Source: Muribaculaceae bacterium
GTDB lineage: Bacteria > Bacteroidota > Bacteroidia > Bacteroidales > Muribaculaceae
Direction: 5' to 3'
NCBI GenBank assembly: GCA_017478855.1
Contig: JAFVCX010000142.1
Span: 1-32,778, forward strand
Length of the DNA: 32,778 nt
This document shows positions 6,298 through 18,344 of this stretch, piece by piece (positions within the stretch are counted from its first letter, which is position 1; the number at the start of each line of letters is the position of its first letter). The notes beneath the pieces were generated by a model. The model was not told where the DNA came from. It made no database searches and worked only from the letters and a program-made list of their open reading frames with translations. The translations under genes were made by a program, and so were the position numbers.

Positions 6298-6341
6298 GCC
6301 ACCGGTTGTAGAAGGACATCACGCCGGCCTGACGCGGACTT

Positions 6342-6773
6342 TTACACGCCCTGCATCAAGAATCCGAAGATGATGTAGGCGGCCAGCAGCACCAGTGTCC
6401 ACATCACTGTGCGCCACAAGCATCCCCAAGAAGAGATGGGTTGCCACCAGTGGCGCACGTTTTTTGTCTTGCTTTTGCCGGCAGTGGAGCTGGCGCGGCG
6501 GGGCGTGGCGCTGCCGCGGGATTGCCGTGCGGTTTTCGTGCGAGGCGGTGGTGTGGCCGTGCGCTGGGGGCGGCTGGTGGTGCTGTCGTCCGAAGTGAAT
6601 TGAATGGGCTTGGTGCGTGCGGGAGGAGTGGCCTTCTTTGCCGTGTGTCCCGCATAGCCGGCCACTTTGTCGCTGGTGAGGCACTGCGGGCAGAGCACCA
6701 CGCCACGCGTTTCTTGCAGCTGTTCGTCGGAGAAAGTGATGCGCTTTCCGCAATTTTTGCAAATCCAATCCAT
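6342..6773 (-). CDS. Zinc-ribbon protein with C-terminal membrane helix (last gene of the cytoskeletal operon)
   Basis: The 143-residue product starts MDWICKNCGKRITFSDEQL. Cysteines 5 and 8 and cysteines 28 and 31 (LCPQCL) form a probable zinc ribbon. A Ser/Thr/Arg/Pro-rich basic linker (about 45-105) follows. The last ~22 residues (VMWTLVLLAAYIIFGFLMQGV) form one hydrophobic helix, so this looks like a tail-anchored inner-membrane protein with the zinc ribbon in the cytoplasm. The ATG at 6773 is chosen because it opens directly on the zinc ribbon and lies 8 bases after the stop of the upstream gene; an in-frame upstream extension would overlap that gene. I do not recognise the family. Its place in the operon suggests it serves the tubulin/actin-like system, as an adaptor or sensor; this is inference. 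Confidence 0.75.
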   Translation of the reverse strand: MDWICKNCGKRITFSDEQLQETRGVVLCPQCLTSDKVAGYAGHTAKKATPPARTKPIQFTSDDSTTSRPQRTATPPPRTKTARQSRGSATPRRASSTAGKSKTKNVRHWWQPISSWGCLWRTVMWTLVLLAAYIIFGFLMQGV

Positions 6774-6781
6774 AACTAAAG

Positions 6782-7591
6782 TTATGCCTCGTAGTGAATG
6801 AGAGCTTTGGTAACCACGCGCCACTGGCCGCGTTCGCACAGGGCCTCTCCCTCACGGTCGGTGACGATGCGCGTCATTCCTGCTGACACCTGAATGGACT
6901 GCCCCTCGCAGGCGCGCGTGAGGTTCTCGGTGGGCATCATGAGGGCAAAACGATGCACGTCGCGATGGTCAATCACGGCAAAGGAGCCATGCTCGCCGTC
7001 GGTGGTGGTGAGAGCAAACAGAGAGTTGCCCAGCTCGAACTGCCGGCTCACGCGGGTGAATCGTCCGTTTCCGTCGGCTTTGGCCAAATAGAGGGTTGTG
7101 GGTTGTGTTTGGCGTGGCTCGGTGGGCTCACTTGTCGCAACGCTCTTTGTGGGCAGGGGATGGGCCTGACGTTGCTCAAGAGTGGCCACTCGCTGCTGCA
7201 AAACGGCGATTTGGTCGCTGGCTTCGTTGGCGAGCTGCTGCATGTTGTGGTGCAGATTGTCAAGCTCGGCATGTGTGGCGGCTTGCGCTTGCAAGAGGGT
7301 GCGCCTCGTCCACCAAGCTGCGGCTCCGGCACCCAGTGCGAGCAGAGCCAGCAAGATGTCGCACGCAAGGCGACCTTTGAACTTGCCGCGCGCCTCAGGA
7401 GGCAGCGGCGGACGTTGTCCGTGCATGAGGTCGAGCTCCTCAAAGTTGGTGTCGGTGGGGACAAAACGTTCTTCGGTCACGCTCCCGTAGGTGTCGGCCG
7501 TGGGGTCTGAAAGGGTGGCGGTCGTGTCGGGGGTCTGCGCAGCCATCATCAGAGCACACAGGCAGGAGAATGCTAAGAATAGTCGTTTCAT
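6782..7591 (-). CDS. Membrane-anchored coiled-coil protein, function unknown (cytoskeletal operon)
   Basis: The 269-residue product has an N-terminal signal peptide (MKRLFLAFSCLCALMMAAQ), an acidic/Pro-rich segment (20-70), a hydrophobic helix (75-94, ILLALLALGAGAAAWW) followed by RR, and a probable coiled coil (98-142) with Leu and Gln heptads. A Pro/Thr-rich linker leads to a C-terminal globular domain (about 165-269) that looks beta-rich. With signal cleavage and one stop-transfer helix, the short N-terminal part would be periplasmic and the coiled coil and C-terminal domain cytoplasmic. The gene starts 4 bases after the stop of the actin-like gene, so the two are co-transcribed and probably translationally coupled. 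I do not recognise the family. It could link the cytoplasmic filament or ATPase to the membrane, which is inference from topology and context. Confidence 0.8.
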   Translation of the reverse strand: MKRLFLAFSCLCALMMAAQTPDTTATLSDPTADTYGSVTEERFVPTDTNFEELDLMHGQRPPLPPEARGKFKGRLACDILLALLALGAGAAAWWTRRTLLQAQAATHAELDNLHHNMQQLANEASDQIAVLQQRVATLEQRQAHPLPTKSVATSEPTEPRQTQPTTLYLAKADGNGRFTRVSRQFELGNSLFALTTTDGEHGSFAVIDHRDVHRFALMMPTENLTRACEGQSIQVSAGMTRIVTDREGEALCERGQWRVVTKALIHYEA

Positions 7592-7595
7592 GGCA

Positions 7596-10500
7596 TTATG
7601 CGTTGTTGTTGCGGTAACGGGTAATCACGTCGTTACACAGGTTTTTAAGTAAGTTGTAGCGAATGGTGCCGATGATGGGGTAGAAGAAAGGCACATCTTG
7701 CACCACATCGTCGGGTTCGTAGCGTCCCGCAAGGAAGCTGTTGATGCCGGCTGTGAGATAATTGGGCAAATCCCGGCCCACCACCTCGGTGAAGAGGCGC
7801 AGCACGGTGTTGTCGATGCCAAAGTCGTCTTTGGTGGTCTTGTCGAGCAAGGACAGGAAGAAGTCGTTGAAAAGATTCACTTGCTCCACCAGCCGGTTGC
7901 GCGTTTCGATGCTGCCCATTGCGTCCATAGTGAGTTGCTCGCCATCAATCATGGAGTGGCAATACTTCAGCTGGGCGGTATTGCGCGAGCTGTAGGCTTG
8001 GGTTGAGACTTGCCCGTCGAGCCGCTGGTTTTCGAGCTTGATGCCGCCCCGGCAGGTGATTTGCTTGGGGCTTTGGGTTTCAATCTTGATTTCGAACTGC
8101 TCGTTGAACTTCCGGCCGAACACACGCTCAAAGATGGTGAGAGTGAGCTCCTGCACTTGCTGCCGGCTGCCCACGATGTTAAGAATCTTCGAGCCGGTGC
8201 CGCTAAAATACACCTGCTTGGGCATTTCGTAACCCCGTGCCAGCATGGTGTGGGCAATGTAGTAAATGAGTGCGCTATAGAAGTACAGGAAGACGAGTTT
8301 GCGCTGCTCGTCATTGCGCAGCAAGGTGTTGTAACTGTACAGATTGCGGTCGATTTCACGCAAGTCGCGCAGCTCCTCCACATTCTCGATGGAGAACAGA
8401 TAAGCGTTGATGTCCTCACTGCGCTTTTGCCGCATGATGTCTTGCAAAATGCTGGAAAGATAGGAGATGCCGGCACTGCGGTCGCTCGCGATGAGCTGGG
8501 TGAAGTAGCGGCAATAGTGCTGCAAGAGCGGATTGGTGTCGGCATCGCGCTCGCTGAAGGCATCGCCAAAGATGGCATTGCCGGCAAAGCGGAACGAAGA
8601 TATGGCCACCGGCTGGCTGTGCATGCGGTCGGGCGTGGGCTGATAGACAACCACATCGCTGGTGCCGCCACCAATGTCGATGGACACATAGCTGCTGCCA
8701 CTCACTTCGGCTCCTTTATAATAAAACGCCGGAGCGATAGATTCGGGATAGGCCTGCAAGTGGCTCAGGTCGTCGCCCATGTAGGTGCGATAGAGGTCGG
8801 TCCACGCGTCTTGCAACTTGCGCCGGTCGCTGCCGCCCATGCTCACAGGATAAAAATAGATGACCTGCACGCGGGTTGTGTCGACGTTCTCGATGAGCGC
8901 TTTGGCCTTGATGAGCAGCATAAGTTCGCGCAAAAATTCCCGCGAGAGGGTAGTGTCGCCCATCCATTTGAGGTTGGTGGTCACCTCATAACCATCAAAG
9001 TAGCGTCGCTCATACAAGAATGGGATGTTGAGGTCATGAAACAGCCGGTTGCCGCCATCGCTGCCAAAATTGCGCGCTAAAGCCGAGCGCAAGGGGAAGC
9101 CATACACTCCACCTATCTCATCGGGCAGGAATTCGATGCGCTGCAACTGGTGCGCGATGTCGATGCCTCCTTGCTTGAGCAAGGGCGCGATGAGCGTTTG
9201 CCGGCTGCTTCGCTCAAAGGCGAGCGGCTGCGACGCTTGACCGCGGTCGGCCCACTCCACATGGGTGTTGGTGGTGCCAAAGTCCACCGCGAAGATAAGT
9301 TCTCGCGCCGAGGGCGAGTAGGGTGGCCATTGGGGAATGATGAGTCCGGTGAAATTGCCTTGCGGAGTGTGCAGAGTGGTTTCGGCGTAGTCCCAAGTGC
9401 CAGCCACATCATAATAGGTGGTGGTGAACACAGCGCTGGCACGCTGCTTGGCTGTGGTGTTCACGTCGCGTGTGCCCTCTTGGTCACGCAAAAACCGCAA
9501 GGTGGTTTGGGTGTGGGGCATCATGGCGAAGAGCTGCACGGTGTAGTCATCGTTGCGGCTTGTGCGCACAAAGGGGAAGACGGCAATACTCATCACGGCA
9601 TCCACGATGCGCCCCGTGCCTCGCCGCTCATCCCACTGCCAAGTGGGGTCGGCAGTGGCTACATATCGTCGAGAAAGTTCTATATAACGCTTCTTGACGG
9701 GAATGCGCAGGGTCACCGTGACCGAATCGTCGCCGCCTACGGCTATTTCCAGCATGTTGCGCCCGCACACTTGGCCTTTGAGGTCGGCGGCCGCGAACCA
9801 GTTGAAGAACTCGGGCATCACAGGCAGCAGAAAGCCATGCCGCGCCTCACCCCTTTCGACGGTGAGGTTGCCGTCGAAATAGTGGTCGGAATCTATGGCG
9901 TTGCTCAAACGAATGAGCGTGTCGCTCAGCACATCGCTTGTGGTGATGAAGGGATACTGAATGGCGGTGTCGGGCAGTCGCCGCTCGTTAAGAGGCAGAT
10001 TGCCGGTGAGCACCTCGGTGGCGCTATCCCACTCCTTGTCGATATAGCGATAGTGCTCCACGCTGCCGTTAAAGGCACTGCGCAGCACAAGGGGCAGGGT
10101 GGAGCCGGCGGGCTGCTCGCGGGTGGGCTGAATCACAAAATCGCTTTGCGCCGCATCGCTGCGAATGTCGCGCACGCGTTTATGGTAAAGCCTTGCTCCC
10201 AGCACGCTCACGTCCATGCCTTCGCCAAAAGGTTCAAAGGCCTGTTCCAGCCGCTCCAGCACCACGGGTGCCTGCTCACGGCTGAGCGCGTTCAGATTGG
10301 GGATGGCCTCGGTGATGCGGCGATACAGGTCGGGGCGGCGCAGCCGCAGGAAATCGGCATTATGTATCATATAACGATAGACCTCGCCGGCGCGCTCGCG
10401 CAGCACGGGATAGGCATTCATGAGCAAGTACATGTAGTAGACGAAATCCTCGTCGCGCTCCCACAGGGCACGGTCGCTCGAGAAGAGCGACACACCTTGC

Positions 10501-11036
10501 TCCACCTTGATGTCATGAACGGCACCGGTGACCGGCGCGGCCATCACCACGGTAGAGGGAGAGGTACCGCCCAGCACTTTGTTGTCCCAAATGATGATGT
10601 GCCAATCGTGCAGCGTGTCGAAGTTATACACCGAATCGCTGGCCAAGAACAGCTCAAGCGTTTCGCCATAGAGGCGGTGGTGCGGATTGACCCGCAACTG
10701 AGCCAGCTGCTCCTCGCGGTTCCAGCGCACGATGCGCAGCTGCTTTTTGTGGTTCTCGAAGTCGAAAAACAGCTGCGCCACATCGAGGGCATTCGACACC
10801 AGCCGCTCATTCATGGCTGCTCCCCGCAAGTTGGGGTTGGCCAGTTGCGCAAAGGCGTTTTTCACGAGGTCGAGTTGCGCAAAGGGGCTGGGGATGGCCG
10901 TGCGCGGGCTGCGCGCCAGTCCGCCGTCGGGGTCTTTGATGCGTGCGATGTCGTCGTCCTGATAAGGCTCCACAGGAATCCAGTCCTCGGCACCTCCGCG
11001 CGATGTTTTGTTGCTATAAGAAAGTATTTCGCTCAT
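7596..11036 (-). CDS. Very large actin/Hsp70-fold ATPase-like protein with ~570-residue N-terminal extension
   Basis: The 1146-residue product has all the core motifs of an actin/Hsp70 (ASKHA) nucleotide-binding domain in its second half. Phosphate-1 is AVDFGTTNTHVEWAD at about 581-595, a connect-1-like element is YPESIAPAFYY, phosphate-2 is SIDIGGGTSDVVVY at about 783-796, and the adenosine motif is VYFSGTGSKIL at about 939-949. The first ~570 residues match nothing I recognise and look mixed alpha/beta without membrane segments or signal peptide, so the protein should be cytoplasmic. Start: the ATG at 11036 lies 19 bases after the stop of the tubulin-like gene; an in-frame ATG at 11084 would overlap that gene and gives an unlike leader. 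Large actin-fold proteins of the SrfB type (enterobacterial srfABC) are a possible relative, but I cannot confirm this. Its role beside the tubulin-like gene is unknown. Confidence 0.85.
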   Translation of the reverse strand: MSEILSYSNKTSRGGAEDWIPVEPYQDDDIARIKDPDGGLARSPRTAIPSPFAQLDLVKNAFAQLANPNLRGAAMNERLVSNALDVAQLFFDFENHKKQLRIVRWNREEQLAQLRVNPHHRLYGETLELFLASDSVYNFDTLHDWHIIIWDNKVLGGTSPSTVVMAAPVTGAVHDIKVEQGVSLFSSDRALWERDEDFVYYMYLLMNAYPVLRERAGEVYRYMIHNADFLRLRRPDLYRRITEAIPNLNALSREQAPVVLERLEQAFEPFGEGMDVSVLGARLYHKRVRDIRSDAAQSDFVIQPTREQPAGSTLPLVLRSAFNGSVEHYRYIDKEWDSATEVLTGNLPLNERRLPDTAIQYPFITTSDVLSDTLIRLSNAIDSDHYFDGNLTVERGEARHGFLLPVMPEFFNWFAAADLKGQVCGRNMLEIAVGGDDSVTVTLRIPVKKRYIELSRRYVATADPTWQWDERRGTGRIVDAVMSIAVFPFVRTSRNDDYTVQLFAMMPHTQTTLRFLRDQEGTRDVNTTAKQRASAVFTTTYYDVAGTWDYAETTLHTPQGNFTGLIIPQWPPYSPSARELIFAVDFGTTNTHVEWADRGQASQPLAFERSSRQTLIAPLLKQGGIDIAHQLQRIEFLPDEIGGVYGFPLRSALARNFGSDGGNRLFHDLNIPFLYERRYFDGYEVTTNLKWMGDTTLSREFLRELMLLIKAKALIENVDTTRVQVIYFYPVSMGGSDRRKLQDAWTDLYRTYMGDDLSHLQAYPESIAPAFYYKGAEVSGSSYVSIDIGGGTSDVVVYQPTPDRMHSQPVAISSFRFAGNAIFGDAFSERDADTNPLLQHYCRYFTQLIASDRSAGISYLSSILQDIMRQKRSEDINAYLFSIENVEELRDLREIDRNLYSYNTLLRNDEQRKLVFLYFYSALIYYIAHTMLARGYEMPKQVYFSGTGSKILNIVGSRQQVQELTLTIFERVFGRKFNEQFEIKIETQSPKQITCRGGIKLENQRLDGQVSTQAYSSRNTAQLKYCHSMIDGEQLTMDAMGSIETRNRLVEQVNLFNDFFLSLLDKTTKDDFGIDNTVLRLFTEVVGRDLPNYLTAGINSFLAGRYEPDDVVQDVPFFYPIIGTIRYNLLKNLCNDVITRYRNNNA

Positions 11037-11055
11037 ATCGTTGTTGCGTGGTGAT

Positions 11056-12570
11056 TTAGTTGATGTTTTCGTAGCGGTCGGCAATGATGCGTGTTGCCGC
11101 GCGGTTGAAGAGGTCGAGCAGTTTGAATTCTGCCGAATGGTCGCCGTAGTTGCTGTCGCGGCTCAGGCGGTTCATCTCGGCTTTGAATACGTTGTTGTCC
11201 ACCGATTTGTTCCACAACAACGAGCGGCGTGTGGTCACTCCGGTGATGGCTCGGTTCATGTCGGTTTCGCCCATGGCAAACAGGTTGACCGAGCGGTTAT
11301 TGTCGTGCATCTCGGCGAGCCATTCGGCATAGGCCCGCATGAAGTCTTCGCTCAGGGTGCGATGGAATTGTGAGGCCAAGAAATCGCGCTTGATTTTGGG
11401 ACTGTCCTCGGTGAAACCTTGCCCAATCATGCAGCTGAAGCCGGTGCGCAAATAGAGAAAAAACAGATGGAACTTGACGAGCGGTTCATACACGAGTCGT
11501 CGTGTGGCGGCACGCAGGGTGAGGAAATTCACGTTGCGCTCGTCTTTGTCGAGGGCAAATTCATAAGCGCTCGTGGGCAGCGGGAATCCGTCGGGGTCGC
11601 TCAGCTTGGAGATGGGCAATCCTGCAAATTTGAGTGGCGCGAGCGCACCCACCAGCTCCACCAAGTGGGCCCGGTTGCGCTGGCCATGCTCGCCCGGGTC
11701 GTAGACGTAGGGCTTGCTCACCTCTTGGTCGCCCACATAGAAGATGGTGTTCAGGTTGGAGTCATTGGCACCGGTGAGCGTATCCTTATAATAATAGAGC
11801 GCACTTTGCGTCTTGACGATGAAGTCGGCCTTGTCGATGCGCCTGTCCTCGTTGTGCTCAATATTGAAGTAGGGCAACACGGTGAGCCCGCCAATGGGTG
11901 CGCGGCGCAGCACGTCGCGGTTATTGATGTCGAGGTTGGCCGCTTGGCGAATGTTCTTGACCATGATGGGGAAACCTGCCGCACCTGTGCCGCCAAAGAT
12001 GGAGCTGATGAAGAAAATGCGGTCGCCGGCGTTGAATACGTTGGCAAAGGCCTTGAACTCATCAGAATCCTTGATTTCGTTGAGGGCCACGCTGCCAATG
12101 TTGGGCGAGCCCACGAAGCCGATGTTCATCTTGTTTTCAAGCTGATAGTCGGCAAAGAGCAGCGAGGTGAGGGCTTGGTTGGCTTCGTTCATAGTGTCGT
12201 AGCCAATGAAATCGCGGAATTTCTCACGTTCCACCGCTCCGAGATTGAAGATGAAGGTGTCGTTGAGCTGGATGGAGCTGTCGCTCATGATTTCACGCAG
12301 GGTGACAAACCGTGTGGCGAAGAAGCCCTCGGCGTTGAGCCGGTTGCCATATAGCCGCTGGCGCAGCATGCGATACTGGGTGAGCAAGGCTTCGGTGCGC
12401 TTGAGGTCTTCGTTGCTCTTGTGGGGGTCGATGATGACGGGCACAATCTCAACGTTGGGCACGGGCTGGCCGTTTTCATCGACCGGTCGCACTCCCGCGG
12501 CCGAAAGCATGATGAGCGACTTGAGAACGCGGCTACCGGTGCCGCCTATTGCAAAGAGGAATAATCTCAT
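11056..12570 (-). CDS. Tubulin/FtsZ-like GTPase-family protein
   Basis: The 504-residue product opens MRLFLFAIGGTGSRVLKSL, a glycine-rich phosphate loop (GGTGSR at 9-14) after a short beta strand, as in tubulin/FtsZ T1. A second loop, ISSIFGGTGAAGFPIM (GGTGAAG at 193-199), corresponds to the tubulin signature, with Ala in place of the second last Gly-adjacent residue. The segment GGLTVLPYF (228-236) looks like the following strand and RAHLVELVGALAPLKF (300-315) like the helix seen in the Tubulin_2-type families. I see no clear NxDxxD/E T7 catalytic loop, so hydrolysis on polymerisation is doubtful. It is longer than FtsZ's GTPase core and lacks FtsZ's C-terminal peptide. No signal or membrane segment. 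It lies between the four-helix membrane protein (36 bases) and the actin-like protein (19 bases). The fold is fairly sure; the function is not. Confidence 0.86.
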   Translation of the reverse strand: MRLFLFAIGGTGSRVLKSLIMLSAAGVRPVDENGQPVPNVEIVPVIIDPHKSNEDLKRTEALLTQYRMLRQRLYGNRLNAEGFFATRFVTLREIMSDSSIQLNDTFIFNLGAVEREKFRDFIGYDTMNEANQALTSLLFADYQLENKMNIGFVGSPNIGSVALNEIKDSDEFKAFANVFNAGDRIFFISSIFGGTGAAGFPIMVKNIRQAANLDINNRDVLRRAPIGGLTVLPYFNIEHNEDRRIDKADFIVKTQSALYYYKDTLTGANDSNLNTIFYVGDQEVSKPYVYDPGEHGQRNRAHLVELVGALAPLKFAGLPISKLSDPDGFPLPTSAYEFALDKDERNVNFLTLRAATRRLVYEPLVKFHLFFLYLRTGFSCMIGQGFTEDSPKIKRDFLASQFHRTLSEDFMRAYAEWLAEMHDNNRSVNLFAMGETDMNRAITGVTTRRSLLWNKSVDNNVFKAEMNRLSRDSNYGDHSAEFKLLDLFNRAATRIIADRYENIN

Positions 12571-12606
12571 GGTGAAAACCTGTTATCAGGAAAAAGTAAA
12601 ATCGTG

Positions 12607-13053
12607 TTATTGTGGAATGGGGGTGTGCCGGCAGTTGCTGCTCCACCACCGCATGGAGAACGAGGCGACCACAAAAAGCAAGGCGCTCCACACCACATTG
12701 CCCAGCTCGAAGCTGAAAGTTTCGAGCTGATAGTCGAGCCCGGCATCGCTGAAAGCGTGGCTGATGACCAAATAGCTGACGATGGGAGTGAGCAAGGCCA
12801 CGACGGCGAGCACGGCCAGCCAGTGCCACCAGCGGTCGAAGCGCACGCTATTGATGGCATAATAATAGATGGCGGCCGCTCCCCATGCCATGCCGATGGT
12901 GATGAGAGTGGCGGTTTCGTAGAGGCCCAAGTTCCAGAGTTGGTCGTTGAATCCGCTGGAATAATAGAGCGCATTGTAGGCATCCTCGCGCATCAGGAAG
13001 AAAACGATGGTGACGAGAATGCCGGCTATCAAGAAAATCAGGTTGCGTTTCAT
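12607..13053 (-). CDS. Four-helix integral membrane protein, function unknown (cytoskeletal operon)
   Basis: The 148-residue product has four hydrophobic segments, at about 4-20, 46-66, 76-98 and 113-133. The first loop carries MREDAYNALYYSSGF and the third DAGLDYQLETFSFELG, both probably periplasmic if the Lys/Arg at residues 2-3 stays inside. The C-terminus is short and polar. I do not recognise a family. It sits 74 bases after the vWA-like lipoprotein gene and 36 bases before the tubulin-like gene on the same strand. That position makes it a good candidate for the membrane link between the periplasmic lipoprotein and the cytoplasmic tubulin-like protein, which is inference from order only. 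Confidence 0.78.
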   Translation of the reverse strand: MKRNLIFLIAGILVTIVFFLMREDAYNALYYSSGFNDQLWNLGLYETATLITIGMAWGAAAIYYYAINSVRFDRWWHWLAVLAVVALLTPIVSYLVISHAFSDAGLDYQLETFSFELGNVVWSALLFVVASFSMRWWSSNCRHTPIPQ

Positions 13054-13127
13054 GTGCTGTGTGATGACTGGTTGCTGTATTGAGGATTAGACGAACTGAA
13101 AAAGCTGAAAAGTTGCGAGCCGAAGAA

Positions 13128-14564
13128 CTATTTCACAAGTTTTAACCGCAGGGTGGTGTAACTCGCGGCGTTGCCAAAGGCATCTTGCATGCCTTGCATC
13201 CATTGCAGCAGGCCCAGCGTGGTGGAAGCAAACTGCGGCGCGAGGGGGTTGCTGTCGTCGTCGGCAGAGGTTTGTGCCACCCAAGCAGGGAAATCGTTGC
13301 GCAGCTCAATGGTGACCTCATCGCGCACGCCTTGCAGCTTGCCGGTGAGCGTGAGCAGGTGGGTTTTGCCCTCGAGATATTGCCGGTTGTTGGCCGTAAT
13401 CATTTGTGGTGTGATGGGCGTTACCTGCAAGGTGAAGTTGCTTAGGGAGCGCACGTTGTAGTTGGCGGCATCGGCGAGAAATGGCTCGCTTTGCTGCACG
13501 GGGCTCAAGTCGGCCGCAAGGGAGAAGCACAAGATGCCTGTTTCCTTGTCGCCCTCGCATTTCTCAAGCAAATCGGCTTCTTTGTGCGAGGGACGATAAC
13601 GGCCCGCATCGTTGGCCCAGCCGGGCACCAAACAGTGGTCCACCTCATGTTCCTCTTGGTTGAAGCGGTAGGAATGAAGTGCCCGCGCAGGATGGAGGAA
13701 AGACTGGTAACGGGCATCGCGCGTCATGGCGTCGAGGCACGGTGTGTCGGCGATAAGCAGCAGGTAGAAGGGCCTCATGCCGCTATAATTCACGGGCTGT
13801 CCGGTGTAGGGGTAGTACTTGCCGTTGTAGTCGCCCATGATTTGCGTCACGACCACCGATTTGCCTTTGTAGTTGCGGAAAATGCGTGTGGCGAGGCTGT
13901 TTTCCTCATTGAGAATCTTGGTGATGCTCACGTTGCGGGTGTCGGCCGGCGAGTAGATGAGGTCGGTGACCACCACGCTCACGTTGCCGGCGGTTTGCGC
14001 CCGCAAGATGGCACTGAAGATTTGGTTGAAGTCGGTGTAGGCCGGATTGCCGGTATCGGCGGTGGAAGCATAGATGTTGCGATCTTGCAAGAAGGCGTCG
14101 ATGGTGCCTTGATAGGGATAAATGTCGTCGTTGACAATGTTGATGCTCACCTTTTGCCCGGGGAATGAATTGATGAGGTCGTTCACCGTCTTTTTCAGGA
14201 TGCCTTGTCCGCCCGGCGTGTCATAGGGCACCATGGAGCCGCTGCGCTCGAAATAGATGGTGAGCGAAGGCTCTTGGGCGGCATAGGCGTTCAGATTCCA
14301 ATGAATGGGCGGGCGCATGCTGCCGCCTATGCGTTCGACGAGCTGCGCCAGCGCGGCCACGTTCACATCGTCGCCGGTGAGGTATTGCGCGTATTTCTTG
14401 GGATTCTGCTTGATGATGTCGCACAGGTTGTTGAATTGCGCCTGTGTAGTGTCTTGCTGCACAAGGGCATGCCGCACGGCTTTTTCGAGCGGCGATGAGC
14501 CGCATGAGGTGAAGGCCGCCAGCAGGATGGTGAGCAGCGTGAGGATTATGAATGTTCGTTTCAT
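13128..14564 (-). CDS. Lipoprotein with von Willebrand A-like domain (first gene of the cytoskeletal operon)
   Basis: The 478-residue product starts MKRTFIILTLLTILLAAFTSC, a lipoprotein signal with Cys21 as the lipidated residue; the mature protein would face the periplasm. After a helical segment (25-85), LTIYFERSGSMVPYD (101-115) matches a vWA first strand and MIDAS motif with Glu106 in place of the usual Asp, and Ser108 and Ser110 kept. Thr177 (AYTDFNQIF) and Asp201 (SVVVTDLIYSP) fit the other two MIDAS positions. The rest (about 270-478) includes probable beta-sandwich-like segments. The ATG at 14564 is chosen over one 30 bases upstream because the lipoprotein signal starts there and the predicted transcript starts near 14585. 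It is promoter-proximal to the membrane, tubulin-like and actin-like genes. The vWA assignment rests on motif pattern, not on a search. Confidence 0.82.
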   Translation of the reverse strand: MKRTFIILTLLTILLAAFTSCGSSPLEKAVRHALVQQDTTQAQFNNLCDIIKQNPKKYAQYLTGDDVNVAALAQLVERIGGSMRPPIHWNLNAYAAQEPSLTIYFERSGSMVPYDTPGGQGILKKTVNDLINSFPGQKVSINIVNDDIYPYQGTIDAFLQDRNIYASTADTGNPAYTDFNQIFSAILRAQTAGNVSVVVTDLIYSPADTRNVSITKILNEENSLATRIFRNYKGKSVVVTQIMGDYNGKYYPYTGQPVNYSGMRPFYLLLIADTPCLDAMTRDARYQSFLHPARALHSYRFNQEEHEVDHCLVPGWANDAGRYRPSHKEADLLEKCEGDKETGILCFSLAADLSPVQQSEPFLADAANYNVRSLSNFTLQVTPITPQMITANNRQYLEGKTHLLTLTGKLQGVRDEVTIELRNDFPAWVAQTSADDDSNPLAPQFASTTLGLLQWMQGMQDAFGNAASYTTLRLKLVK

Positions 14565-14591
14565 TCGGCGATGTGGTTTGTAATTAGCAAA

Positions 14592-14623
14592 CAAAATTAA
14601 TGAAAATGGAGCGAAGTGCCAAA
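14592..14623 (-). promoter_or_regulatory. Promoter of the tubulin/actin-like operon
   Basis: On the minus strand TTTG (14623-14620) is followed after exactly 20 bases by TAATTTTG (14599-14592). Both elements match the Bacteroidota consensus fully and the spacing is ideal. Predicted start is near 14585, giving a leader of about 20 bases before the ATG at 14564. No further promoter of this quality is seen inside the six-gene operon. Confidence 0.8.
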
Positions 14624-14693
14624 TAAATTATTGGATTTTGCCTTCGCACACTCATGCGATATAGCAAATTTCATGCCACGGCCTATCGCTGCG

Positions 14694-15982: not shown

Positions 15983-16054
15983 GGCCCATTCGTCTATCGG
16001 TTAGGACGCAAGATTTTCATTCTTGAAAGAGCAGTTCGACTCTGCTATGGGCTA
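15983..16054 (+). tRNA. tRNA-Glu (TTC), copy 2
   Basis: All 72 bases match the copy at 15575-15646, including the TTC anticodon. The identity ends one base after the discriminator. Here the discriminator A is followed by CCA (16055-16057), so a 3' CCA is present in the DNA, unlike in copy 1; this may be by chance. A terminator hairpin begins 7 bases after the tRNA. Confidence 0.97.
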
Positions 16055-16206: not shown

Positions 16207-17691
16207 ATGGCACAGCAGAATAAACAGATTACCAAGCAGACGGGCACCCTCACGCAGAAGCAGGTGCAACAGCAGCGGCTCATGCGGCAGCTGGGCAGCG
16301 TGGTGGAGCAGACCAATCTGGAGATTGAGGATTATGTGCGTCAAGAGCTGGGTGACAATCCCGCGCTGGAGCCGTCGGCCGACGATGCCGGTGGCGACCT
16401 GAACCGCACCGATGAGGAGGGCAAGCTCTCTCGTGACACGAGCGAGGACATCACGCCCAACGACGACTGGGAAGACAGCGGCCAGCAGCTGGTGCGCACC
16501 CGAGGGGGCGGCTTGCGGGCGAGCGACAGCGATTTTCCACCCGAACCACTTATTGTGAATGAAACATCGCTCATCGACTACCTGATGGGCCAACTTGAAG
16601 AGCAGGGACTTGACCCGCAGGAGCGCGTGATTGCCGAGCAGGTGATAGGCAACATTGACGATAAGGGCTATTTAAGGCGCGATGCCGCCTCGATTGCCGA
16701 TGACCTTGCCTTTGACGGCGTGACTCTTGTGGACGATGGCCTTGAGCGTGAGGTGGAAACTGCCGATGTGACGCGCGTGGTCAAGCGCGTGCAGCAGCTC
16801 GACCCTCCGGGCATAGGAGCCACAAGCGTGCAGGAGTGCCTGCTGTTGCAGCTCGCACGCAAAGACACCGCGCAGGCCCGGTTGGCCCATAAAATGCTGA
16901 GCGACTACTTTGATGATTATGCAAGCCATAATTATGGCCGCATCATGACGGCTCTGCACCTCACCACCGAACAAATGGGCGAGCTGACACGTGAAATCAG
17001 GCGACTCGACCCGCATCCGGGCAGCCAGCTGGCTCCGTCGAGCAGCACCCACAGCGCACAAATCACGCCCGACTTTATCATAGAGAGTGCCGGCGACGGT
17101 TTCACCATCACGCTGGTGAACTCCATTCCCGAGCTGCAAATCTCAGAGAGTTATCAGTCGCTGGCCACAGCCGATGCAGCTACCAAAGCCCGCAAAGCCG
17201 TGCGCGACGATGCCAAGAAGAAGGTGGATCGCGCCAGCGACTTGATTGAGCTGCTCAAAATGCGGCAGCAGACGCTATGGCGCATCATCAACGCCATCTT
17301 CACTCGCCAGCGCGAGTATTTTGCCAGTCAGGGAGATGAAACTTGCCTGAAGCCCATGATTCTCGACGACGTGGCCAAAGATGTGGGTTGCCACCCCTCG
17401 GTGATTTCTCGTGCCAATGCCAACAAGTATGTGCAGATGCCGTGGGGCACGAAACCGCTGAAGTTCTTCTTCAGTGAGGCCGTGGGCGACGCTTCGAGCA
17501 AGGCCATACAGGAAACGCTGCGCACGCTGGTGGCCGGCGAAGACCACGAGAATCCGCTCAACGACAAGGAACTGTGCGACCTGCTGGCCGAGCGTGGCTA
17601 CACCGTGGCACGGCGCACGGTGGCCAAATATCGCGACCAACTGCACTTGCCCTCGGCCCAACAACGCAAGAAACGTTATCAACACCCCTGA
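16207..17691 (+). CDS. rpoN: RNA polymerase sigma-54 factor
   Basis: The 494-residue product directs RNA polymerase to -24/-12 promoters that need an AAA+ activator. Region I at the N-terminus is Gln/Leu-rich (LTQKQVQQQRLMRQLGSVVE) and ends NPALE. An acidic region II follows (about 60-110). The core-binding and helix-turn-helix part includes IGNIDDKGYL and CHPSVISRANANKYVQMPWG. The RpoN box is present near the C-terminus as ARRTVAKYRDQL. Length is normal. The ATG at 16207 is preferred to a TTG two codons earlier. The PAP2-like gene starts 5 bases after the stop, so at least these two are co-transcribed. No sigma-54 activator gene is seen in the window. Confidence 0.96.
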   Translation: MAQQNKQITKQTGTLTQKQVQQQRLMRQLGSVVEQTNLEIEDYVRQELGDNPALEPSADDAGGDLNRTDEEGKLSRDTSEDITPNDDWEDSGQQLVRTRGGGLRASDSDFPPEPLIVNETSLIDYLMGQLEEQGLDPQERVIAEQVIGNIDDKGYLRRDAASIADDLAFDGVTLVDDGLEREVETADVTRVVKRVQQLDPPGIGATSVQECLLLQLARKDTAQARLAHKMLSDYFDDYASHNYGRIMTALHLTTEQMGELTREIRRLDPHPGSQLAPSSSTHSAQITPDFIIESAGDGFTITLVNSIPELQISESYQSLATADAATKARKAVRDDAKKKVDRASDLIELLKMRQQTLWRIINAIFTRQREYFASQGDETCLKPMILDDVAKDVGCHPSVISRANANKYVQMPWGTKPLKFFFSEAVGDASSKAIQETLRTLVAGEDHENPLNDKELCDLLAERGYTVARRTVAKYRDQLHLPSAQQRKKRYQHP

Positions 17692-17696
17692 CCGAC

Positions 17697-18344
17697 ATGA
17701 AGAAAGTATCCCGTTTCACCTTCAACCGATTGCTGGCCGCTTCGGCCCGATTTTTCAGCACGGTGATGTCGCCCTTGCTGATGCCCACCTATGGTGCCTT
17801 CTTGGTGCTGTGGGCCTCGGTGCTGTGCCTGCTGCCGAGCGGCACCCGTGTGACGGTGCTGGTGATGGTGCTGGGCATCACATGCGTGCTGCCCATGCTG
17901 GCGATAGGCGTTTTGCATCACTATGGCCTGATTCATGATAAACAGTTCACACGGCGCACCGACCGGCTGATTCCATACGCATTCGGCCTGCTGTGCTATG
18001 TGGGAGCCGCTTTCTATTTGAGGCACATTCACTCGCCGCAATGGTTCATCATGTTTATTGCGGGCGCGGGCTTGTCGTGCTTGGTGTCGATGCTGGTGAA
18101 CTTCAAGTGGAAAATCAGTGCGCACAGTGCCGGCATAGGCGGTGTGGTGGCTTTGCTGTTCCAGCTGCATGTGCAGGGATTGAGTGCCTTCAACTTGTTT
18201 TGGGTCATCTGCGGCACAATGCTGCTGGCCGGAGTACTGGGCACCAGCCGCCTGATATTGAAGAATCACACGGTGGGGCAGGTGCTGGCCGGTTTTGCCA
18301 ACGGCTACCTGTGTGTGATGCTGATGATGAAATATTTGGGATGA
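17697..18344 (+). CDS. PAP2-like integral membrane protein (altered catalytic motif)
   Basis: The 215-residue product has about six hydrophobic helices. Two segments recall the acid phosphatase motifs of PAP2 enzymes: [13 protein letters not shown] (137-149), in the place of PSGH, and [18 protein letters not shown] (183-200), which keeps SRx5H (Ser184, Arg185, His191). The residue three after that His-plus-one, usually Asp, is Gln195. [14 protein letters not shown] (81-94) may stand for KX6RP. PAP2 enzymes remove phosphate from lipids such as undecaprenyl diphosphate or lipid A. The start at 17697 is the first ATG after the rpoN stop; earlier in-frame codons lie inside rpoN. purE starts 25 bases downstream. 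The fold is likely, but activity is uncertain because of the changed residues. Confidence 0.75.

Follow-up and report, generated by a model that had tools for sequence, protein, structure and literature searches.

Introduction

Operons that combine vWA proteins with FtsZ-like proteins were described by Makarova and Koonin (2010), who proposed that they act in membrane remodelling, and a reviewer of that paper suggested transport or signalling (PMC2875224). Most FtsZl1 proteins of these operons combine an FtsZ-like domain with a helical domain and a long coiled coil (1051 amino acids in the example given). The operons have links to a GTPase, to kinases and to OmpA proteins, and an actin-like partner is not mentioned (PMC2875224; statements about papers cited here by PMC number refer to excerpts of them). 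GTPase-centred conflict systems with tubulin, HSP70 and vWA proteins were described by Kaur et al. (2020), and are nearly absent from cyanobacteria (PMC7159879). Here we analyse a six-gene operon that joins a tubulin-like and an actin/Hsp70-like protein to a lipoprotein and further membrane proteins. It lies in a stretch of 32,778 nucleotides, called the window throughout, from a Muribaculaceae bacterium (assembly GCA_017478855.1, contig JAFVCX010000142.1). Outside cell division, it is rare for a tubulin-like and an actin-like protein to be encoded together as a unit.

A first-pass annotation of the window, made from the letters alone, had noted six same-strand genes behind one promoter and read them as an envelope-spanning machine, in which two cytoplasmic nucleotide-binding proteins act through membrane adaptors on a periplasmic metal-binding lipoprotein. 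The observation is correct but understated, and the interpretation as a whole is partly supported by the results below. We recognised no description of such a cassette by title or abstract start in the open literature (subscription papers, preprints and supplements lay outside this search).

Results

A five-gene core kept in fixed order

Scanning a genome collection with the tubulin-like protein of the window yielded 61 loci, and loci from further genomes and plasmids raised the total to 98 distinct tubulin-like frames. Genes were counted on stop-to-stop frames and only in loci with room for them, so that denominators vary with locus length; L135-L137, L139-L142 and L242 (identical to L057) were left out as the same DNA. 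Iterated profiles of the six genes recovered the same gene order in most of the 61 loci. This recurrence, in loci found through the tubulin-like protein, marks the cassette as more than chance. The conserved core comprises five genes in fixed order: lipoprotein, small membrane protein, tubulin-like protein, actin/Hsp70-like protein and coiled-coil membrane protein. An actin-like frame lies within 400 bases downstream of the tubulin-like gene in 88/96 loci and within 4.5 kb in 91/96. The lipoprotein, or its membrane-anchored counterpart, stands upstream in 88 of the 89 loci, the small membrane protein or its counterpart is present in 89/94, and the coiled-coil gene in 66/83. Because the tubulin-like gene was the means of selecting loci, and many of these loci also went into the profiles, these counts describe its companions and not how often the other genes occur alone.

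The tubulin-like gene is found in 12 of 395 genomes of the phylum and in 27 of 119 genomes of the family. Strong matches to the actin-like profile occur in nine of the 395 phylum genomes, all of which also carry the tubulin-like gene; the remaining 27 are weak, with E between 7e-6 and 1e-3, and cover a short segment at profile positions 743-854 in frames 420-502 amino acids long. In one genome (G390) the tubulin-like frame is interrupted and the actin profile found no match, and two (G184, G284) contain distant copies of both genes. The annotation had set co-occurrence of at least four genes across Bacteroidota as the sign of a system, and this was observed. Several copies are carried by contigs of chromosome size (1.1 to 7.0 Mb).

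The pairing extends to a second phylum. In a translated search of 72,556 plasmid records, the tubulin-like and the actin-like query returned the same six records, namely five cyanobacterial plasmids and a 1.77-Mb replicon of Prevotella sp. oral taxon 299. Four of the six were read at gene level (three cyanobacterial regions and the Prevotella region). The Prevotella copy has all six genes, including the zinc ribbon (E 2e-5). Each cyanobacterial region holds a lipoprotein-profile gene, a small hydrophobic protein, a tubulin-like and an actin-like gene with the order kept, the lipoprotein gene of Gloeothece being on the opposite strand; these core genes are annotated as 'hypothetical' or 'unknown', except the tubulin-like gene of Gloeothece. 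In a search of only 19 proteins, the cyanobacterial tubulin-like proteins scored 191-196 bits, the actin-like proteins 140-194 bits and the lipoprotein homologues 42.8, 29.8 and 23.4 bits. The coiled-coil protein gave 28.7 and 27.5 bits in the Picosynechococcus PCC 73109 plasmid, 10.4 in NIES-970 and nothing convincing in Gloeothece. The family profile of the small membrane protein found no match in its cyanobacterial counterpart. Three to four genes therefore co-occur by profile in cyanobacteria, where the small membrane protein is equated from its position only.

The tubulin-like and actin-like proteins

The tubulin-like protein has the N-terminal GTP-binding core of the FtsZ/tubulin superfamily, and its two glycine loops of T1 and T4 type (IGGTG and FGGTGA-x-G) are both invariant in the family alignment. 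Pfam Tubulin_2 matched four carriers (E 4.6e-6 to 8.2e-5, one of them reaching the cut-off only together with in-frame neighbours), with no match in at least two others (G000, G072), and PF00091 matched the window protein at E 0.012 over the T4 region. Comparison of profiles with hhalign gave at most 46% to Tubulin_2 and 2.8% to FtsZ, against at most 1.8% for controls, and the Gloeothece homologue is named tubulin-like in its record. These matches weakly support the assignment of the 504-residue protein to the tubulin superfamily. Membership of FtsZl1/Pfam Tubulin_2 was rejected, both on score (13.3 bits against a cut-off of 27) and on length, since a protein of 504 amino acids does not have the coiled-coil architecture of about 1000 residues; genuine Bacteroidota Tubulin_2 proteins are found in frames of 997-1215 amino acids with E 1e-32 to 7e-70. 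The label tubulin/FtsZ-like in the first-pass annotation therefore holds, weakly, at the level of the superfamily but not for a proper FtsZl1/Tubulin_2 protein. Sequence searches of solved structures with the cassette proteins returned nothing convincing. Some genomes carry two divergent tubulin-like copies: G411 (contigs C11 and C14), G421 (C2 and C42) and G475 (C319 and C184). Separately, two congeners have second, shorter FtsZ-like frames besides a normal ftsZ (G524:C69:8769-9260, 373 amino acids; G523:C208:12538-12990, 344 amino acids).

For the actin-like protein the profile evidence is consistent with the annotated fold. The phosphate-1 and phosphate-2 loops of the actin/Hsp70 (ASKHA) superfamily are present as DFGTTN and DIGGGT, invariant in all 19 rows of the alignment. 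With hhalign the family reached 94.7% to DnaK (13 rows, 191 columns) and 94.5% to FtsA (4 rows and 37 columns only), compared with 0.1% for the RpoB control and 0.4% for the FtsZ control. A cyanobacterial homologue matched Pfam FtsA at E 4.8e-5, under the cut-off. An actin/Hsp70 fold is thus supported for the 1146-residue protein, of which about 570 N-terminal residues are without a domain assignment. SrfB, considered on account of its size, was dismissed as an identity because no SrfB match appeared at E up to 1.

The junction of the two genes is altered in a few loci. In L009 a YhcG/DUF1016 PDDEXK nuclease gene (11528-12793; Pfam E 7e-42) lies between them and begins, by eye, with the initial residues of the actin-like protein, as if inserted just behind its start codon. 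L002 holds a relative of this nuclease by clustering, and L007 and L138 also have extra DNA at this place. L121, L124 and L125 have an additional actin-like gene upstream of that for the lipoprotein, and a long gene separates the two in L121 and L125.

The lipoprotein and the membrane proteins

Cys21 of the lipoprotein is invariant in 17 aligned rows. Its metal ion-dependent adhesion site (MIDAS)-like motif, ERSGSM in the window, has glutamate in place of the first aspartate; with one frame taken per locus (n=85), ExSxS was found in 75, DxSxS in 7 and neither in 3. No Pfam vWA match at E up to 1 was obtained among the 17 aligned family members, and the one weak match, to VWA_2 (E 0.0038), came from a distant relative. 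The vWA-like label of the annotation therefore draws on the MIDAS-like motif and this one weak Pfam match, and remains tentative. Since the first aspartate is replaced in 75/85 loci, the window included, metal binding by the lipoprotein, as proposed in the annotation, is uncertain.

A hydropathy scan placed two segments over threshold in the small membrane protein of the window and three in a relative, fewer than the four helices annotated. The fifth protein has a single membrane segment at 75-93, as annotated, but its signal peptide and coiled coil were judged by eye only. The sixth protein agrees with its description as a zinc ribbon with a tail helix: it matches Pfam Zn_ribbon_4 at E 3e-6 (27.5 bits, below the cut-off of 30.3) and has one terminal membrane segment in the hydropathy scan.

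Exchangeable genes at the 3' end

Clustering of unlabelled neighbours, together with profile counts, showed that the genes 3' of the core vary. Zinc-ribbon proteins follow the core in 40/81 loci, those of the window's clade, and a ZorA/ZorB-like pair in 18/78; no locus among the 98 has both. The zinc ribbon, counted earlier as one part of a six-gene system, hence belongs to the exchangeable end and not to the core. In four members scanned with PADLOC profiles, ZorB matched at E 2.3e-15, 8e-11, 4e-8 and 2e-13, and ZorA at E 9e-8 in one and near 0.005 in two, the fourth giving no match. The aspartate in the membrane segment of the ZorB-like protein is invariant (15/15), and the ZorA-like partner has three hydrophobic segments and a long tail. 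No PADLOC match to a Zorya effector (ZorC/ZorD or ZorE) was found for the six window proteins, the effectors of relatives not having been searched exhaustively.

Other loci end in hydrolases. Five add aspartyl-protease and staphylococcal-nuclease (SNase) cluster genes, both lipoproteins by eye, as in L052 (SNase E 7e-26, aspartyl protease E 3e-14), and L119 adds a trypsin-like gene (E 2e-21). In L031 a second zinc-ribbon protein (17157-17768) combines an FtsK gamma winged-helix domain (E 1.9e-12) with a hydrophobic stretch at its end, which would place a DNA-binding domain at the membrane.

In a distant branch (L114, L127, L129-L134) a DxSxG-motif protein replaces the lipoprotein, with an N-terminal membrane helix in the example read, and the actin-like protein has 1282-1333 amino acids (seven complete frames). 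Most of its members have TerD genes behind the tubulin-like and actin-like pair (8 loci labelled TerD; Pfam TerD E 8e-43 and 6e-32 in L129), while none of TerD, TerC or TerB is among the six proteins of the window. Within this TerD branch the 540-amino-acid-type protein reached 58% against the lipoprotein family, the small protein 11% against the small membrane family and the 663-amino-acid-type protein 14% against DnaK. The gene adjoining TerD in L129-L131 looks by eye like a P-type ATPase.

In a tree of the tubulin-like proteins, from which L116 and L124 (interrupted tubulin-like frames) and identical sequences were left out, the zinc-ribbon rows form one clade beside motor-bearing lineages. 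That the window's lineage lost the motor is plausible, although the tree is unrooted, requires several changes of the motor, and has other motor-less lineages and long deep branches.

Mobility and the insertion site

The cassette is patchy and horizontally transferred, and is present in two phyla. Cryomorpha ignava (Flavobacteriia) and Membranihabitans marinus (Saprospiria) share 70% identity in RpoB compared with 90% in the tubulin-like protein, 85% in the actin-like protein and 79% in the lipoprotein, and three Muribaculaceae-type genomes show the reverse (RpoB 85-88%, tubulin-like 59-65%). RecO and rubrerythrin, which flank the window copy, stand beside no other copy among 104 loci of varying flank length. 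In one congener (G527) these two flank genes lie 2.2 kb apart at the same site, with unrelated genes between them (L241:7428-9606) that look by eye like LemA and TPM-domain proteins. The flank genes are on different contigs in 13 further congeners, so that synteny is loose in general and G527 is a single case; two more congeners could not be judged. A 55-base stretch, possibly a dispersed repeat, is 98% identical between window positions 15983-16037 and a contig end of G527 (L241:10479-10533).

The operon in the window

The six open frames lie on the minus strand at 6342-14564 (Table 1), and the intergenic gaps in gene order, 74, 36, 19, 4 and 8 bases, agree exactly with those first annotated. 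The lipoprotein starts with ATG at 14564; an upstream TTG alternative would move the start to 14594. The pattern TTTG-N19-21-TAnnTTTG, which we take to be the Bacteroidota promoter type, occurs 5 times in the window, where shuffles lead one to expect 0.21, and one of these matches is the promoter annotated ahead of the operon. The neighbouring genes that were tested encode ordinary proteins: an RNB exonuclease, a Na/Pi cotransporter and rubrerythrin to one side, RecO and GcpE to the other.

Table 1. Coordinates of the operon and associated features, in positions of the window.
Feature	Positions	Strand	Remarks
Promoter-like site TTTG-N20-TAATTTTG	14592..14623	-	Ahead of lipoprotein gene; pattern match
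vWA-like lipoprotein, 478 aa	13128..14564	-	Cys21 and MIDAS-like ERSGSM; cyanobacterial homologues
Small membrane protein, 148 aa	12607..13053	-	C-terminal NC-x-x-T motif, conserved
Tubulin-like protein, 504 aa	11056..12570	-	Invariant IGGTG near N terminus; FGGTGA-x-G loop at 192-199
Actin/Hsp70-fold (ASKHA) protein, 1146 aa	7596..11036	-	Loops DFGTTN (585-) and DIGGGT (787-); hhalign
One-helix protein, 269 aa	6782..7591	-	Apparent signal peptide, coiled coil, conserved C-terminal domain
Zinc ribbon with C-terminal membrane segment, 143 aa	6342..6773	-	Exchangeable last gene of the window's clade
Segment between rubrerythrin and RecO genes	6298..14693		Congener G527 has unrelated DNA at the same site

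Discussion

The reading towards which we tentatively lean, somewhat short of calling it probable, is that the operon is the Bacteroidales form of a mobile, envelope-associated nucleoside triphosphatase (NTPase) cassette, with a putative sensor outside, a nucleotide-driven assembly inside and a swappable output, serving as an envelope conflict system. An envelope-spanning arrangement with two putative cytoplasmic nucleotide-binding proteins, as in the earlier proposal, is the best reading of the predicted anatomy; metal binding by the lipoprotein is uncertain, and the sixth gene is not part of the core. In such a machine, the tubulin-like and actin-like proteins would assemble beneath the inner membrane in a nucleotide-dependent manner. 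They would be docked by the small membrane protein and by the one-helix protein, the latter through its coiled coil and C-terminal domain, which follow the helix on its basic, probably cytoplasmic side. The vWA-like lipoprotein would sense or bind a partner in the periplasm, and this binding, passed inward, would trigger assembly. Output would come from the 3' module, as ion flow and force from a peptidoglycan-anchored motor, as periplasmic hydrolases, or through the zinc-ribbon protein at the membrane. We infer a conflict role because the cassette is mobile and carries exchangeable hydrolases and, in relatives, a Zorya-like motor; it would plausibly be directed against phage or incoming DNA. 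A more specific proposal, which we consider doubtful, is a family of mobile, envelope-spanning immune machines, spread over at least two phyla, in which tubulin-fold and actin-fold NTPases co-assemble under the membrane. They would take their signal from a lipoprotein sensor in the periplasm and power interchangeable outputs (among them a Zorya-like rotary motor, secreted nucleases and proteases), the window version having a membrane-anchored zinc ribbon in place of the motor.

Several results weigh against a conflict role. Known defence families were not enriched in the flanks: at E 1e-15, 55 PADLOC families were found among 140 flank proteins and 56 among 134 controls (random draws from 265 and 296 proteins, respectively, with families counted and not proteins). 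None of the six window proteins matched a PADLOC profile better than E 0.022, and the tubulin-like protein, as sole query, had no match in 50,697 phage records. The copy in the window sits between housekeeping genes. Its operon lacks the ZorA/ZorB motor, and none was found elsewhere in the genome by a search that had no positive control. By these profiles, 23/78 loci have neither motor nor zinc ribbon, so that the output module is often not recognised. In favour of a conflict role, the lipoprotein and the coiled-coil protein are less conserved than the tubulin-like and actin-like pair in 36/36 genome pairs, but this may reflect weaker constraint on the envelope proteins instead of an arms race.

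The same flanks would suit a response to envelope or metal stress of the Ter kind, in which the lipoprotein senses damage or metal and the NTPases build a protective or repair scaffold, with no infection involved. The TerD genes of the distant branch point in this direction, and vWA and zinc-ribbon proteins would be apt for metal sensing. TerD is limited to that one branch of the tree, however, the nuclease and protease genes of other branches would be unusual for stress repair, and the first MIDAS aspartate is lost in 75/85 loci; we regard this explanation as unlikely. Rather unlikely, too, is a machine for membrane remodelling, vesicle formation or transport, with tubulin and actin filaments shaping or powering an envelope complex as for FtsZl1 operons. 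A role of this kind has been proposed for vWA/FtsZ-like operons (PMC2875224), and the peptidoglycan-anchored motor of relatives could power transport, but a patchy, mobile distribution and exchangeable hydrolases are a poor match to a housekeeping envelope process, and no outer-membrane channel or transporter was seen by eye among recurrent neighbour clusters, lineage-specific ones aside.

Partition of plasmids or chromosomes by a TubZ/ParM-type system would explain the copies on plasmids in five cyanobacterial records. We rejected plasmid partition, and consider such a role highly improbable, as the partners are lipoproteins and membrane proteins, several copies are on chromosome-sized contigs and ParA/ParB are already present on the plasmid of Gloeothece. 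That unrelated genes are clustered here by chance, for which we found no argument, is scarcely conceivable and is refuted by an order kept in 88/96 loci and in two phyla, and by the retrieval of the same six plasmid records with both queries.

A mobile cassette that couples this pair to the envelope and is followed by either a zinc-ribbon protein or a ZorAB-like motor would connect the cytoskeletal folds of prokaryotes with envelope sensing and perhaps with defence against phage, and would suggest a wider use of Zorya-type motors than is known. Chitinophaga silvisoli, Cryomorpha ignava and Picosynechococcus sp. are named strains that carry the cassette, so that the 2010 proposal on vWA/tubulin-like operons becomes testable.

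Comparison with known systems

Several described systems share parts of the cassette. FtsA and FtsZ are likewise an actin-fold and a tubulin-fold protein encoded as neighbours, but the genome of the window has its own ftsA and ftsZ on another contig (G000:C81). The cassette is accessory, with an actin-like protein some 2.5 times the length of FtsA. Partition systems of the TubZ type have a tubulin-like gene on some plasmids; the cassette shares this location and differs in its membrane and lipoprotein partners and in its copies on chromosome-sized contigs.

The Zorya system (PMC11890865) resembles a subset of the relatives, which encode a ZorB-like protein (with the membrane aspartate and an OmpA-like part) and a long-tailed ZorA-like protein; the motor comparison is drawn from this paper and from one on stator evolution (PMC12505986). 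It differs in that no Zorya effector was recognised, that the partners are the tubulin/actin/lipoprotein core and that the window copy has no motor. The GAP1-N2 DO-GTPase systems are also mobile and often membrane-near, and include tubulin homologues, vWA and HSP70 proteins and variable effectors (PMC7159879). They are defined by a DO-GTPase and GAP1 and are nearly absent from cyanobacteria (PMC7159879), where the cassette does occur. Apart from the weak tubulin matches, none of the six window proteins matched a P-loop GTPase family (E up to 1), and inspection by eye of recurrent neighbours of relatives, on which no GTPase or GAP1 profile was run, showed no GTPase.

Like the cassette, the vWA/FtsZl1 operons encode a divergent tubulin-superfamily protein beside vWA and membrane proteins, and are predicted to form a membrane-associated complex (PMC2875224). 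Their tubulin-like protein is of about 1000 amino acids, while that of the cassette has about 500, a far lower Tubulin_2 score and an actin-like partner; none of the five core genes was found by profile at five Bacteroidota Tubulin_2 loci, which gave one zinc-ribbon profile match. Because related predictions exist for them, we place the cassette with the vWA/tubulin-like membrane-associated operons.

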